A stretch of DNA of 42,934 nt from the NCBI GenBank assembly GCA_016210495.1, contig JACQUC010000278.1, positions 1 to 42,934 on the forward strand. Direction: 5' to 3'. The position numbers and the translations under genes are program-made. Within the stretch, counting starts at the first letter, position 1; each line of letters begins with the position of its first letter. The notes below the pieces were generated by a model. It did not search any database. It was given only the letters and a program-made list of their open reading frames with translations, and was not told the DNA's origin. This DNA is from Chloroflexota bacterium (lineage in GTDB: Bacteria > Chloroflexota > FW602-bin22 > JACPRP01). Positions 9,625-18,782 of this stretch are shown here, piece by piece.

Positions 9625-10749
9625 ATGTCATCACTACGTTTCCTGACCGCTGGCGAGTCGCACGGCCCGGCGTTGGCGGCCATCGTCGAAGGGATGCCCG
9701 CCGGAGTTGCTCTCGACGAGGGAATCATCACTCGCGACCTCCGGCGCCGGCAGGAGGGCTACGGGAGAGGGGGCCGGATGAAGATCGAGCGCGACGAGGC
9801 GGAGATCCTGGGCGGCGTGCTGGCGGGCCGCACCAGTGGTGCCCCCATTGCGTTGCGAGTCGAGAACAAGGACTGGGCCAACTGGAAGGGCAAAGAGGTG
9901 CCCCCGCAGACCATACCGCGGCCGGGACACGCCGATCTCGCGGGCAAGCTCAAGCACGGCCACGAGGAGTTCCGTGTTGTGGCCGAGCGCGCCAGCGCCC
10001 GGGCTACCGCGATGCTGGTAGCCGCTGGTGCAGTCGCCAGGGCTCTGATGACCGAGCTTGGTATCTCTGTCTACAGCCAGGTGATCGCCATAGGCACTGT
10101 CAAGGCCAATCCGGTGGCGATGCCCTTGCCGCAGCTTATGGAGCGCCTGGAGGCGTCGTCTTTGCGCTGCCCAGATTCGGAGGCCGAAGCAGCCATGCGG
10201 CAGGCCATCGACGAGGCACGGGACGCTGGCGACTCGCTTGGGGGCGTCTTCGAGGTCACTGCCATTGGCGTTCCGCCCGGCCTCGGCAGCTACACGCATT
10301 GGGACCGGCGCCTCGACGGGCGTCTGGCTCAGGCGATGATGAGCATTCCCGCCATCAAGGGCGTGGAGATCGGCGATGGGTTCGCGATAGCAGCCAAGAT
10401 GGGTACCCAGGCCCACGACGAGCTCTTCTATCGCGACGGTAGAATCTGCCGGGTGTCCAATCGCGCCGGGGGTATCGAGGGCGGCGTGAGCAATGGCGAG
10501 CCTATCATCGTGCGGGCGGCCATGAAGCCGATTCCGACCACGGTGGCCCCCCAGCGCTCCGTGGACATCGCCACGCGGCAGGAGACTCAGACGAAGTACC
10601 AGCGGTCCGACGTGTGCGCCGTGCCGGCGGCCGCGGTTGTCGGGGAGGCGATGATGGCATGGGTGCTGGCGGACGCTTTACTGGAGAAGTTTGGCGGCGA
10701 CAACTTAGCGGACGTGAAGGTCGCGCTGGAGAGGTATCTGACAACATAG
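9625..10749 (+). CDS. aroC: Chorismate synthase
   Basis: 374 residues, the usual length. The enzyme converts 5-enolpyruvylshikimate-3-phosphate to chorismate with reduced FMN, the last common step to the aromatic amino acids. Signature elements are clear: [11 protein letters not shown] at the N-terminus, [28 protein letters not shown] with ERASAR after it, [13 protein letters not shown], and [13 protein letters not shown] followed by MKPIPT and [29 protein letters not shown] has an alanine where most relatives have E or D. No other shikimate gene is adjacent, so it is an isolated housekeeping gene. GGAGAAGGG lies a few bases before the ATG. Confidence 0.96.
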
Positions 10750-12366: not shown

Positions 12367-13190
12367 CTGAGCCCCAGGATACTGGCCGCATTTCCCCCGA
12401 GGATCTTCTCTTTGGCCCGCTCGCTAAGGGGCAGGTTTCTGATGGCCTCGATGTTTCGTTTGACCTGGGGGACGGAGGGCCAGTCGGAGCCGAAGATGAC
12501 TTTGTCTGCGATGCACTCCAGGTCGGGGAAGTAGCTCAGGAGCTTCTGGGGCGGGAGGCCGGCGATCTCCATGTAGACATTCTCGTGCAGGCTCGCCAGA
12601 TGGAAGGCGGCGTCGTACCAGAAGCCCCGGCCACTGTGGGACATGATCAGCGTGAGGTCCGGGAAGTCGACGGCGATCTCGTCGATGAAGAGCGGATCGC
12701 CATGCTTTAGCCGCGTGCCGGCGAAGACCGATGAGCCCGTGTGAAACATGACAGGTATTTGTAGCTGGTCGGCCTTGGCGTAGAGAGCGTACAAGTTGCT
12801 GTCGTGAGGGTAAAACAGGTGATAAGGGGGGAGGATCTTGACGCCCTTGAAGCCTAGCCCGCGCACACAGCGTTCTAATTCCTGGGCGGGGTTGTTTTCG
12901 AGATACGGATTGATGTTGGCGAAGGGGATGAAGAAGTCGATGTCCCGGCAGAGCTCCGCCGTCCTGTCGTTGGACATCACGCCGGCGGTGATGGGGCTCA
13001 TCTCTGCCAGGGCGACGACATAGTCGACTCCGGCGTCGCGGAAGAATCTGCGCGCGCCCGCGCGATTGAGGGTGCCGTCGATGAAGGACTGCGCCGGCTC
13101 AGGGAGGCCGGGCTGCATCCAGTCGACGACGTGGGGGTACCACACCTCGTATACGCTCGCGTGTACGTGGAAGTCGATGACGGGGGCCAT
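12363..13190 (-). CDS. Amidohydrolase-2 family metal-dependent hydrolase/decarboxylase
   Basis: About 275 residues of a TIM-barrel amidohydrolase. Metal-site elements are present: IDFHVHAS at the start, FKGVKILPPYH in the middle, VMFHTGSS and LIMSHSGRG with further histidines, and IFGSDWPSV with the catalytic aspartate. Members of this family include aminocarboxymuconate-semialdehyde decarboxylase-like and 4-oxalomesaconate hydratase-like enzymes, so a role in aromatic or organic-acid breakdown is possible but not shown. ATG at 13190 has AGGA nine bases upstream; an in-frame ATG at 13217 is the alternative. It converges on the MFS transporter, sharing four bases with it. Confidence 0.85.
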   Translation of the reverse strand: MAPVIDFHVHASVYEVWYPHVVDWMQPGLPEPAQSFIDGTLNRAGARRFFRDAGVDYVVALAEMSPITAGVMSNDRTAELCRDIDFFIPFANINPYLENNPAQELERCVRGLGFKGVKILPPYHLFYPHDSNLYALYAKADQLQIPVMFHTGSSVFAGTRLKHGDPLFIDEIAVDFPDLTLIMSHSGRGFWYDAAFHLASLHENVYMEIAGLPPQKLLSYFPDLECIADKVIFGSDWPSVPQVKRNIEAIRNLPLSERAKEKILGGNAASILGLS

Positions 13191-13237
13191 GTGAATTGGT
13201 CCTATGTTATGTTGCATTATGGCTAACTAAGGGACGA

Positions 13238-13276
13238 CCCTCACCCTGTCCCATCTCCCCAGAAGGGAGAGGGGAC
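13238..13276. repeat. CTCTCCC hairpin repeat, copy 3
   Basis: CCCTCACCCTGTCCCATCTC, then a loop and AGGGAGAGGGGAC. It lies upstream of the amidohydrolase gene. Confidence 0.65.
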
Positions 13277-13341
13277 AGGACGCATCGTCCTCATAGGTAT
13301 CAGCCTAAGCAATGCTGACGCCTGAAGGCGCTCGATCATCG

Positions 13342-13504
13342 TAATGTAGGGGCGAACGGCGTTCGCCCGCGTCGTTGGTACGAAGATGCAAGAAATCGGC
13401 GCGAACATTGACGAGGGGCATCGGGCCGACGTTTTGCACGCTGGACGGGCGTCTGGGTCGGATCGAGAGCCCGCGTGGGCGAACGCCGTTCGCCCCTACG
13501 TTAT
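13342..13504. repeat. Inverted pair of palindromic repeats around a 100-base core (MITE-like)
   Basis: TAATGTAGGGGCGAACGGCG and onward (13342-13371) returns as its reverse complement at 13472-13504. Each arm is itself a palindrome (GGGCGAACGGCGTTCGCCC). The core has no reading frame. The element fills much of the 375-base gap between the amidohydrolase and aldehyde oxidoreductase genes; the rest of that gap shows nothing else. The layout resembles a small non-autonomous transposable element; mobility is inferred. Confidence 0.55.
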
Positions 13505-13565
13505 TTGCGTCCCCGGCCGCCGTTGGATAGATCGGTATTGACCCAGGGCCGGGCTGGGCTCAAGG

Positions 13566-15491
13566 CTATCTGAGCCCCAACTTGTCGAGCTTCGCTCTAG
13601 TCGGGACGCCTCGAGCGATGTCCCACCCCCGTTCTTCGTAATACGAGTCCAGTAGCTTCTCGACGTCCTGGGGTGTCACAGCCTTTGTCTTGAAATAGTC
13701 TGAGAGCCGCAACTCCTTGTCGCCGAACTTGATGGGCTGCGTCAGCCATTTCTCGGGAAAGCGATCCTGCCGCCTGTCGAAACCCTCTCGCACGTTGGCG
13801 AATTTGTAAATGTTGAAGGCGCGGTCCGCGGACTCGACCAGCTCTTCGGGCGTCGTCTCCAGGCCCGTGGCGGCCGTGTAAAGCTGTGCGCAGGTGCTGG
13901 CGTCGTAGAGGCGCGAGCTTTGCAAACGAAAGCAGAGGCCCAGGCAGTTCAGCACCGTGCACCAGTTTTCGTAGTGCGCCAGGTAGCGGCCCAGGTTTTC
14001 ACCGCCTGGCTCGAGCGCAACGCGCTGGATGGCTTCCCCGGTGAAGCCCATCCGCCGGGCCATCTTGGCGAAGAACTCCGGCCCCCGCCCCAACGCGACG
14101 GTAAGCCCTCCCGCCGGCATGTCGTGTGCTCCTCTGGGGTTCGTGGCCTGCCCGAGCGTCTCGACGCCCAGGGTGATTCTCGGATCGAAGTCCGGGTCGC
14201 CGCCCTTTATGTGTATGGCATATTTCTCCGAGCCCCTGCCGATGCGCCTGATGGCCTCCAGCCACCCTCCGGCCAGTATCTCACCTAAGCCCTCGCGCCG
14301 CATCACCTGCTCGAGCAGCACCTTTGTCGTCTGATAGCCGGGGATAAGGGGAAGCCCACCCGTGTCCGACGCCGTGATGATGCCCCGGTTGTAGAGCTCC
14401 ATCGCCCAATCGACCAGGGCGCTGAAACCCATCGCGTCGATGCCGTAGCGATTGGCCATATCCAGGTTGGCCATTGCCTGGTCGAGACCTTCAGCCCCGC
14501 ACTTCATGCCGAACGCCAGCACGGAAATGAGGCCCAGAGATACGCTGGTGCATTGCCCGGCGTGCTCGCCCTCTCTCAGCTCGACGACCGCCTTGTCGCC
14601 CGCCATGCACGAAGTGCAGGCTAGCGTTCGACGCTTCATCTGCTCATAGAGGTGTGCGCCAAATCGCTCCATTACTTCGTTTTCCGGATAGACCTCGGCG
14701 CCGTTGTTGCGGATGAAGTGGCCGGCTTTGGCCCAGACCGGCAGAATGAAGTGCAGGCCGAGCCTGGTCCAGTTGTCGCGCAGCGGGTCCTGCCGATGGT
14801 TCTCCGTGAGCTTGTCCACGATGCTCATAAAGCCCTTGCGGTCGGCAACGCGCAGCCCTCTCGAGCCGTAGACGGCGATGGCCTTGAGGTTCTTGGCCCC
14901 AAACACGCCGCCGAGGGTGCGGCCCAAGGTGGCGCACTTGTCGATGAGCACGAGGCTAATGTTGACCCCGTTCTCCCCCGCCGGCCCGGTGCAGGCGATG
15001 ACGAACTTTCCGCCGAGCCTTCGGCTCAGCTCGTCCGTGGCCTGGTAGATGTCCTTGCCCCAGATGAAGTCGGCATCACAAAGCTCGACGTCGTCGTCCG
15101 CGATTTTCAGGAAGACGGGGTTGTCGGCCCTGCCCGTGATGACGAGGTGGTCGTAGCCAGCCCACTTGAGCATCGAGCTCAGTCGGGTGCTGCCCACCGC
15201 CGCACCGATAACGCCCGTGGCCGGGCATTTGTAGGTGGCGAACGACTTGTCAGCGCAGGGTGCCAGCGTGCCGCCAAGGACGCCCGCGCCGATGACGATG
15301 AGGCTATCGGAGGCGTAGGCGTCAGCGTGCGGCCGTGTCTCGTCGAGCGCCAGCTTTGCGTTGTAGCCCCAGCCACCGATGACGCTGCGAGCAAGCCCGA
15401 TATCCAGTGGCTCGCTGGTAACCCTGCCTGTCGAAAGGTCAACGCGCAGGACTCTTCCCGCGTACCCTTTGCCTGTTATCATTGGCTTCAC
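13566..15491 (-). CDS. aor: Aldehyde ferredoxin oxidoreductase (tungsten/molybdenum enzyme)
   Basis: About 641 residues, the usual size. The family oxidises aldehydes to acids with ferredoxin as acceptor, using a bis-pterin tungsten or molybdenum centre and one [4Fe-4S] cluster. The N-terminus reads ITGKGYAGRVLRVDLSTG, then GGWGYNAKLALDE, TGVIGAAVGSTRLSS and GRTLGGVFGAKNLKAIAV. Cluster ligands: CTSC is present, but the third position of the expected C-x2-C-x3-C is aspartate (CTSCMAGD); the distal ligand is in NCLGLC. The start GTG 15491 overlaps the ferredoxin stop (GTGA) and has GAAGGA upstream; ATG 15482 is the alternative. The open frame continues upstream, but those residues are the ferredoxin gene read out of frame. 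Substrate unknown. Confidence 0.9.
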   Translation of the reverse strand: MKPMITGKGYAGRVLRVDLSTGRVTSEPLDIGLARSVIGGWGYNAKLALDETRPHADAYASDSLIVIGAGVLGGTLAPCADKSFATYKCPATGVIGAAVGSTRLSSMLKWAGYDHLVITGRADNPVFLKIADDDVELCDADFIWGKDIYQATDELSRRLGGKFVIACTGPAGENGVNISLVLIDKCATLGRTLGGVFGAKNLKAIAVYGSRGLRVADRKGFMSIVDKLTENHRQDPLRDNWTRLGLHFILPVWAKAGHFIRNNGAEVYPENEVMERFGAHLYEQMKRRTLACTSCMAGDKAVVELREGEHAGQCTSVSLGLISVLAFGMKCGAEGLDQAMANLDMANRYGIDAMGFSALVDWAMELYNRGIITASDTGGLPLIPGYQTTKVLLEQVMRREGLGEILAGGWLEAIRRIGRGSEKYAIHIKGGDPDFDPRITLGVETLGQATNPRGAHDMPAGGLTVALGRGPEFFAKMARRMGFTGEAIQRVALEPGGENLGRYLAHYENWCTVLNCLGLCFRLQSSRLYDASTCAQLYTAATGLETTPEELVESADRAFNIYKFANVREGFDRRQDRFPEKWLTQPIKFGDKELRLSDYFKTKAVTPQDVEKLLDSYYEERGWDIARGVPTRAKLDKLGLR

Positions 15492-16060: not shown

Positions 16061-16090
16061 TTGACTTTTCAACCGTCGTTGTGGTAGAAT
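16061..16090 (+). promoter_or_regulatory. Promoter of the T-box leader
   Basis: TTGACT (16061-16066) and TAGAAT (16085-16090) are separated by 18 bases, with a TG two bases before the -10 box. Transcription should start near 16097, just ahead of the leader's first stem. Confidence 0.75.
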
Positions 16091-16096
16091 GCCTGC

Positions 16097-16455
16097 AAGT
16101 TAATAGCGTATCGACTGTGAACAGGACTAGTAGGCATCCAGCGAGGTTCAGAGAGTCGGGTTTGGTGTGAGCCGATACCGGCGCAGATGTCCAAATGGAC
16201 CTGGGAGTTGCCAACCGAAAGCCCGTACTGTTGCGAGTAGGCTTGGCCGGAGTTACCACCGTTATCCGGGTGAAGAGTATCGGCCGCAGATCCTTGCCCG
16301 TAGTCCGTGTCGATGTTGGAAGGATGAGGTGGTCCCGTACTCGAGATAAGTGAGGTACTGCTTCTCAGTCTGGTATCCTATGGAGAAGCAGCCTAATTAG
16401 GGTGGCACCACGGGTGCGTATAACGCTCCGTCCCTTTGGGGAACGGAGCTTTTTC
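16097..16455 (+). ncRNA. T-box leader, tRNA-Trp-type, upstream of an M24 peptidase
   Basis: A T-box leader senses uncharged tRNA and decides between termination and read-through. The T-box itself, TTAGGGTGGCACCACGGG, is at 16397-16414, directly before an intrinsic terminator. Stem I is recognisable: AGTA at 16129-16132, paired segments GG-CATC with GATG-T-CC and GCG-A-GGT with ACC-GG-CGC, an AGAGAG bulge at 16150-16155, and the distal loop TTTGGTGTGAG at 16161-16171. The specifier region after the stem reads AAA-TGG-ACC (16193-16201), so the specifier is TGG (Trp). The antiterminator bulge TGGC would pair with a GCCA end, which fits the G discriminator of tRNA-Trp. A Stem III-like segment with GAGTAGGC and CCGTTA follows. 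Confidence 0.88.
16425..16454 (+). terminator. Intrinsic terminator of the T-box leader
   Basis: GCTCCGTCCC (16425-16434) pairs with GGGGAACGGAGC (16438-16449), followed by TTTTT. Its 5' arm starts 11 bases after the T-box sequence, as expected for a transcription-controlling T-box. Confidence 0.88.
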
Positions 16456-16502
16456 ATTTGGCGGGCGTAACGGGTCACTCGAGGAAACGGAGGGCAGGGG
16501 AC

Positions 16503-17750
16503 GTGGTAGCGATATACAAAGAGCGGCTTGCCAGACTCAGAGAGGATATGGAGAGGGTCGGCCTCGACGCTCTGCTATCGATGCATCCGATCAACCAGTA
16601 CTATCTGACGGGCACCGCACAGTACCAGATTCTCGTCGTGACCAAGGTTGCGGATCCCGTTATTCTGGTGAAGAGAAACATCGAGCGAGCCAGGGCCGAG
16701 TCCTGGTTGCCGGATATTCGCCCGCTAGGAGATGTGCGCGAGGATCTGGTGGATCTGGCCCGCGAGATGGACCTCAGAAATCGCCGCATCGGCATCGAAT
16801 TCGGACTCACGACGGCCGCGGCGCTGAAGGAAACCGAGACAATCCTCCCCTCCTGCCACTTCGTGGATTCCGATGGGGTGTGGCTGCACTGCCGCAAGAT
16901 CAAACAGCCCGAGGAGATCGCGAAGCTGCGACGGGCTCAGAGCATCGTGGACGAGGTCCACGCCGACATGCCGCAGATACTTGTCGAGGGCGCGCGCGAG
17001 GTCGACGTGGTGGCCGAGCTGGATTATCGCTTGAAGAAGCTGGGTAGCGAGGCGATGCCGTTCTTCTTCGGCACCGGGGGCCGGCCTATGGCCTGGCGTG
17101 CGACCACGCGGCTGATCTCTGGCGCCGACGGCGCGACGCCGACCGACTATCCCGTCGTCGGCGGAGCCGGGCTGAGCCCAGCCACACCTCACGGTCCGTC
17201 CACGAAGATCATTCAGCCTGGCGAACAGTTCAGCATCGACATCATGGCGGTGGTCGAGGGCTATCACGCCGATTCGGGCCGCACCTATTTCGTGGGTGAA
17301 CCCTCCCGCCGACTCAGAGACATGTACATGACGGCGCTCTACGCGGAGAGGGTTTTCATCGATGGCGCCAGGCCGGGCGTCGTCGTCGGCGATCTGGTCA
17401 AGAAGGTGGTCAGTTATGTCGAGGCAAGAGGCTACGGCGACTATTTTATGGGGCCGCGTCCCCACAACAGCAGCGTGATCGGACATGGGGTTGGCCTTTA
17501 CATCAATGAGTATCCCTTCGTTTCGGCGTCCGTGCGTGAGGTTCTGCGCCCGGGCATGGTCATCGCCGTAGAGCCGAAGGTCGTAGTGCCCGAAGTCGGC
17601 TGCGTTGAAGTCGAGGATACGGTGGTGATCACCGAAAGTGGGTGCGAGCTGCTATCTAATGCGCCCAAGGAGCTGGATGAGGTGATCCTGCCTGCCTATG
17701 GCCACGATAGATCAGCTTTTGCAGAAGCGGCCGGGTTTAGAACCTTCTAG
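16503..17750 (+). CDS. M24-family metallopeptidase (Xaa-Pro dipeptidase/creatinase-like)
   Basis: About 415 residues. Residues 1-140 are a creatinase N-terminal domain (LDALLSMHPINQYYLTG). The pita-bread domain carries all five metal ligands expected of M24: the two aspartates in SIDIMAVVEGYHADSGRTY, the histidine in IGHGVGLY, and glutamates in VIAVEPK and CVEVEDTV. An upstream histidine in TPHGP matches the substrate-side residue. Such enzymes split Xaa-Pro or related amide bonds in the cytoplasm. GTG 16503 has GGAGGGCAGGGG just upstream and lies beyond the leader terminator; a TTG at 16458 is in frame but sits next to the terminator. Expression is predicted to rise when tRNA-Trp is uncharged, which is unusual for a peptidase. 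Confidence 0.88.
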   Translation: MVAIYKERLARLREDMERVGLDALLSMHPINQYYLTGTAQYQILVVTKVADPVILVKRNIERARAESWLPDIRPLGDVREDLVDLAREMDLRNRRIGIEFGLTTAAALKETETILPSCHFVDSDGVWLHCRKIKQPEEIAKLRRAQSIVDEVHADMPQILVEGAREVDVVAELDYRLKKLGSEAMPFFFGTGGRPMAWRATTRLISGADGATPTDYPVVGGAGLSPATPHGPSTKIIQPGEQFSIDIMAVVEGYHADSGRTYFVGEPSRRLRDMYMTALYAERVFIDGARPGVVVGDLVKKVVSYVEARGYGDYFMGPRPHNSSVIGHGVGLYINEYPFVSASVREVLRPGMVIAVEPKVVVPEVGCVEVEDTVVITESGCELLSNAPKELDEVILPAYGHDRSAFAEAAGFRTF

Positions 17751-18448: not shown

Positions 18449-18477
18449 TTGACAAGAAGCAGTTCTGATGCTATACT
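18449..18477 (+). promoter_or_regulatory. Strong extended -10 promoter of an unassigned RNA
   Basis: TTGACA (18449-18454), 17 bases, then TATACT (18472-18477) preceded by TGC. This is one of the closest matches to consensus in the window. Transcription should start near 18484. Confidence 0.8.
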
Positions 18478-18604: not shown

Positions 18605-18747
18605 TGCCCTGCTCCTGGGAGCAGGGCCCAATGACCTCAGGCTAGCCCCACTTAAGAGGTGGCCGGCACTGGATATGTGCCTCGAGCCCCAGGAGACGGG
18701 TCTGAATGACCAGCGGGGTGATGTCCTGATAATTCAAGAAAAAGCAG

Positions 18748-18782
18748 AGCCCCACGTTTTCAAAACGTGGGGCTTTGTTTTC
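18748..18782. terminator. Intrinsic terminator, probably bidirectional
   Basis: AGCCCCACGTTTT and AAAACGTGGGGCT pair perfectly around one C (18748-18774), with T-rich sequence after and A-rich sequence before. It can end the RNA to its left and the minus-strand HEAT-like gene to its right. Its GTTTTCAAAAC centre resembles palindromes at 10921 and 33235, so it may derive from a repeat. Confidence 0.8.

Follow-up and report, generated by a model that had tools for sequence, protein, structure and literature searches.

T-boxes precede trpE and trpB-like genes in Dehalococcoides, and Trp-class T-boxes located before NSS and ABC transporters have been tabulated as well (Wels et al. 2008, PMC2494555). 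The main text of that article contains no word starting with 'peptid' (0 occurrences), and in the part of the open PMC literature within our reach we found no T-box ahead of an M24 peptidase; an earlier mention is possible. In the window analysed here (the whole stretch of 42,934 bases), a T-box leader stands in front of a gene for an M24 metallohydrolase, and this pairing is known from two genomes only, the second being a Chloroflexi MAG (G001, locus L001). The elements found in the window are the following.

16061..16090, + strand: sigma-70-like promoter TTGACT-18-TAGAAT (motif scan; a similar promoter lies at the same place in L001)
16108..16438, + strand: T-box leader (RF00230), 95.8 bits
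16103..16213, + strand: Stem I of the Trp type, with AGTA bulge, CAGAGAG and GGTG loop (Trp-leader model, 103.5 bits)
16129-16132, + strand: AGTA (sequence read with the RF00230 alignment)
16149-16155, + strand: CAGAGAG (read in the same way)
16164-16167, + strand: GGTG loop (read in the same way)
16196-16198, + strand: specifier codon UGG, Trp, TGG in DNA (RF00230 alignment, Trp-leader model)
16399-16409, + strand: T-box sequence AGGGTGGCACC / AGGGUGGCACC (RF00230 alignment)
16403-16406, + strand: bulge UGGC, which expects discriminator G73 (RF00230 alignment, motif scan)
16399..16435, + strand: T-box and antiterminator (folding, -12.9 kcal/mol)
16425..16454, + strand: intrinsic terminator hairpin and T run (folding, -18.7 kcal/mol, z -4.8)
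16503..17750, + strand: M24 metallohydrolase of 415 aa, with D246, D257, H328, E357 and E371, and Asn335 at the second-His position (Pfam, alignment, structure model)

The Rfam covariance scan matched RF00230 over its full length (model 1-219, E 6.1e-20), with a score exceeding the curated cut-off of 93 bits by a margin of 2.8 bits only; RF00230 was the single Rfam family above cut-off in the window. Promoter, Stem I with AGTA and AGAGAG, T-box and terminator, all named in the first-pass annotation, were located at 16061-16454. The promoter motif alone is a weak indication, because the 2.6 kb region holds four such sites against 1.0 expected in shuffles; in L001 a promoter-like TTGACT-17-TATACT precedes Stem I at the equivalent position. 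Following the specifier TGG, the sequence reads A-CC-TGG-GAG. The antiterminator and the terminator share the segment CCGUCCC and are mutually exclusive. An unconstrained fold of 16330-16470 formed the terminator and not the antiterminator, as expected without tRNA. A simple terminator scan of the region did not include the hairpin at 16425-16454 among its listed sites. The terminator ends 48 bases before the GTG start of the M24 gene. These observations confirm the T-box leader, which is probably of the transcription-attenuating type.

Its amino acid class was approached by comparison with other T-boxes. Within the class of G001, strict parsing succeeded for 99 T-boxes of 115 loci, the window included, and left 16 unparsed. 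A bulge C was present in all 26 T-boxes with a TGG specifier, the window among them, versus one of the 73 with other specifiers (L026); the Fisher p value of this association, 5e-23, is overstated, since the sequences are related. A looser parse added two more cases of TGG with bulge C, L001 and L071. L069, a non-TGG locus outside the strict parse, has two motifs, the first of which shows a bulge C too. The rule is imperfect, because L058 pairs TGG with a bulge U. According to the first-pass annotation, the TGGC bulge agrees with the G discriminator of tRNA-Trp; the bulge would match G73. No tRNA-Trp was detected in the window or among the 24 tRNA matches of the incomplete MAG G001. A Stem I covariance model prepared from 25 Trp leaders, from which the window and L001 were excluded, as was L119 for an insert, gave 103.5 bits for the window and 108.1 bits for L001, and 32.8-66.9 bits for 16 non-Trp T-boxes scored alongside; in the same model L058 reached 99.6 bits and seven others in that run 25-48 bits. 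The predicted specificity for tryptophan thus draws support from three sides: the UGG codon in Stem I, the bulge sequence UGGC, and the scores of the Trp-leader model. The score near the Rfam cut-off could be taken to mean that this is not a Trp T-box, the true specifier being another codon or the match arising by chance, but with E of 6e-20, a covariance fit that itself gives UGG as the specifier, the high Trp-leader score and a leader in L001 that reads alike, such a view is hardly conceivable.

Two further observations concern T-boxes of other classes. The motif scan showed Leu-specifier leaders in which a single specifier stem is followed by a pair of T-box motifs, spaced 76-188 bases from each other (L002, L013, L034, L035, L048, L052, L056, L066, L069, L074, L091, L099 and L114), as if the antiterminator module had been doubled. 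Eight Met-specifier T-boxes were parsed in the set formed by the class of G001 and the window; at L004:1501-2000 (- strand) of G001, a SAM riboswitch (RF00162) is placed directly 5' of a Met-specifier T-box, both before thrC.

The usual targets of Trp T-boxes in this lineage are different. The class of G001 comprises 29 genomes with 129 T-box matches, of which 114 were examined (109 of the 124 outside G001); the other 15 score at most 56.1 bits, and one of them, G005:C50, lies directly before a trpS match. Among the 109, 27 carry a TGG specifier, and the first gene behind them is trpS in 13 cases, trpE in nine, trpD in two, trpB2 in two and a gene for an ABC substrate-binding protein in one (L058). 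This number is a lower bound because of the unexamined matches and of unparsed specifiers: motif parses gave none for eight of the 114, six of which (L025, L105, L109, L110, L112, L118) match the Trp model at 25-47 bits with no TGG at the specifier place, while L089 and L117 show neither a Trp-model match nor a parsed specifier. An M24 gene comes first behind none of the 27 (0/27), so that the M24 target is a departure common to two genomes, and the first-pass annotation was right to call it unexpected. The T-box of L058 (2682-2791, - strand), with bulge UGGU instead of UGGC, precedes a gene for a periplasmic binding protein (Peripla_BP_6), and the locus also holds a frame resembling, by eye, a LivH-type permease.

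Stem I of the window is 84% identical to that of the trpD leader of G009 and 81% identical to that of the M24 leader of L001. The closeness to the trpD leader indicates that the M24 leader is of trp stock. In the leader tree, the branches among these three are weakly supported, and for this reason the timing of the leader's change of gene, once or twice, is not fixed.

The second instance came to light when species genomes were scanned by pattern for M24 relatives: 69 stretches were matched and one, L001, was confirmed. Its M24 protein is 73% identical to that of the window, the gene being cut by the contig end, and the T-box ahead of it has a TGG specifier, a UGGC bulge, promoter-like hexamers and a terminator; its RF00230 score is 80.5 bits, below the cut-off of 93. 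Thus, in the one ortholog leader examined, the TGG specifier suggested as worth looking for is present. Folding gives an alternative terminator and antiterminator in both leaders. The upstream neighbour in L001 is an alpha/beta hydrolase gene, preceded by a thymidylate-kinase-like frame (by eye), whereas the window has a gene for aldehyde ferredoxin oxidoreductase there, on the opposite strand; the window's upstream genes (12370-15322) match contig C95 of G001, and the T-box and M24 gene of G001 are on C89. Four further M24 proteins (P0002-P0005) show 71-76% identity to the window protein. Among 400 genomes drawn from the phylum and searched at E 1e-85, a cut at which distant M24 proteins would be missed, a relative appeared in G001 only; no T-box match was found near the other M24 relatives of the class detected at E 1e-40 (G009:C47, G001:C99), and no relative was found in viral contigs.

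The first-pass annotation had conceded that its proposal would fall if, in related genomes, the leader preceded a tryptophan gene and the peptidase were a recent arrival. Kinship to trp leaders is indeed evident; a recent chance arrival is contradicted by recurrence of the pairing at 73% protein identity in a second genome with different upstream genes. A related possibility is that the M24 gene replaced a lost trp operon and retained its leader, so that regulation by tryptophan persists without use. Besides the kinship just described, the gene content of G001 speaks for it, as no match was found there for any of four markers that most of the 29 genomes in the class possess: trpA (25 genomes), IGPS (25), the N-domain of TrpE (25) and chorismate synthase, AroC (27). 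For the TrpB-related model, G001 yields four partial weak matches only (best E 9e-6) and no full-length TrpB; some match to this model, those of G001 included, occurs in 27 of the 29. G001 has two full-length trpS matches. However, the MAG is incomplete, as its 24 tRNA matches serve 13 amino acids and none was found for seven, Trp among them; the missing trp genes are therefore weak evidence, and a loss of tryptophan synthesis in G001 is only suggestive. Against the relic view, specifier, bulge, terminator and antiterminator have been kept in both genomes despite the changed neighbourhood, and we find it distinctly improbable that the leader is a relic. The window organism need not be a Trp auxotroph, a point against the salvage explanation favoured below, because chorismate synthase is encoded by aroC at 9625-10749, on the strand of the M24 gene and 5.4 kb upstream.

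The M24 gene starts with GTG at 16503, with a G-rich site ahead, and is followed by a rubrerythrin-type gene (PF02915). Farther downstream, the window contains a promoter-like site at 18449-18477 (11/12 match), no listed ORF of 100 aa between 18415 and 18766, and, by eye, a palindrome with a T run at about 18745-18779; the segment 18449-18780 is a possible small RNA or leader, and has no Rfam match above cut-off.

The product of 16503-17750 combines the Pfam domains M24 and Creatinase_N. The structure model (pLDDT 93.2) has X-Pro peptidases as its best fold matches, with 5cdl of D. radiodurans at the top (TM 0.92 by target), and the five metal-ligand positions are present and conserved in the alignment. 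Domains, fold and ligand positions place the protein in the M24 fold; that D246, D257, H328, E357 and E371 bind metal we take over from M24 enzymes generally. The protein falls outside PepQ, with 150.6 bits against a cut-off of 630 in the archaeal PepQ model NF040821, and with Asn335 in place of the second active-site His (GHGVGLxxHE). This His matters for activity; in 5cdl and 5giu it is the residue with which Asn335 aligns. Since Asn replaces this residue of the closest solved peptidase, 'Xaa-Pro dipeptidase' should be understood as a fold-level name only. We know of no characterised member of this M24 branch. The enzyme is probably cytosolic, no signal peptide being evident by eye.

Instead of a peptidase, the gene might encode a hydrolase of some Trp derivative or an enzyme of indole metabolism, an explanation whose RNA part is the same as in the one we prefer and which overlaps the amide half of the latter. 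M24-fold creatinase, ectoine hydrolase and DMSP lyase perform non-peptide chemistry, and the fold matches of the model include DoeA, creatinase and DddP. In alignment group A1, Asn occupies the second-His position in all seven covering members, the window included, and a WR-containing insert is confined to this group (8 of 102 aligned proteins, all A1). Nevertheless, sequence matches to peptidases are stronger, and Asn or Asp at the second-His position is common among the 102 aligned M24 relatives (Asn 37, Asp 29, His 35, gap 1), and we regard a non-peptidase function as unlikely, although still a serious rival.

Another explanation would keep the peptidase and widen the signal. Tryptophan is a rare residue, and tRNA-Trp may therefore run short early; low charged tRNA-Trp could then report general amino-acid hunger, and the M24 enzyme, as a broad dipeptidase, would recycle peptides of mixed content rather than Trp in particular, with the RNA working as in the main explanation. 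That X-Pro peptidases are the best fold matches agrees with such a role. Against it, the other T-boxes of G001 fit their targets (Leu with ilvD, Ile with ileS, Thr with thrS), Met with thrC being indirect, and a general sensor seems to us unlikely, although worth retaining.

We favour the explanation, with a probability of roughly 0.6, that a tRNA-Trp-sensing T-box, kin to the trp leaders of the lineage, controls the M24 hydrolase and couples tryptophan hunger to salvage. It builds on the RNA anatomy, the Trp class, the M24 pairing in two genomes, the fold and the ligand positions as observed; sensing of tRNA and antitermination are transferred from the known T-box mechanism. In Stem I, UGG would be read by the CCA anticodon of uncharged tRNA-Trp, and the UGGC bulge would pair with the GCCA end of this tRNA, stabilizing the antiterminator. 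With the antiterminator held, transcription would read through into the M24 gene, and with charged tRNA-Trp the terminator would remain. Acting on a peptide or amide taken up by the cell, the M24 enzyme would then release tryptophan, or else an indolyl amino acid precursor, and salvage would thus be switched on by tryptophan hunger. Salvage of tryptophan from such a source is the most likely role of the predicted hydrolase, and the first-pass proposal that the enzyme recovers Trp from peptides, or acts on a Trp derivative, fits as a putative function. More tentatively, the Trp T-box might have moved from synthesis to salvage, with synthesis either lost or demoted and the leader captured by a Trp-dedicated Asn-type M24 hydrolase of an undescribed substrate class; we put this forward as a speculative possibility.

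A T-box specifier codon names an amino acid, and can therefore help to assign a role to a vaguely named enzyme; here it would point the M24 branch at tryptophan supply. A leader of the trp kind whose target is a hydrolase, and not synthesis or charging, suggests that T-box regulons may reach into amino-acid salvage. With the Trp T-boxes of Dehalococcoides, so far as they are described in PMC2494555, our leader has phylum, Trp class and leader RNA in common, whereas their targets are trpE and trpB-like genes and that of the window is an M24 metallohydrolase. The transporter-associated Trp T-boxes tabulated there, and that of L058 before Peripla_BP_6, concern outside supply and not synthesis, as that of the window probably does, but they drive transporters and the window leader a hydrolase. 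On the protein side, the Xaa-Pro peptidase of D. radiodurans (5cdl, 5giu) shares the fold and the five ligand positions with the window M24 protein, which differs from it in being only 29-30% identical, in having Asn for the second aligned His, and in carrying an insert before the PHG motif.
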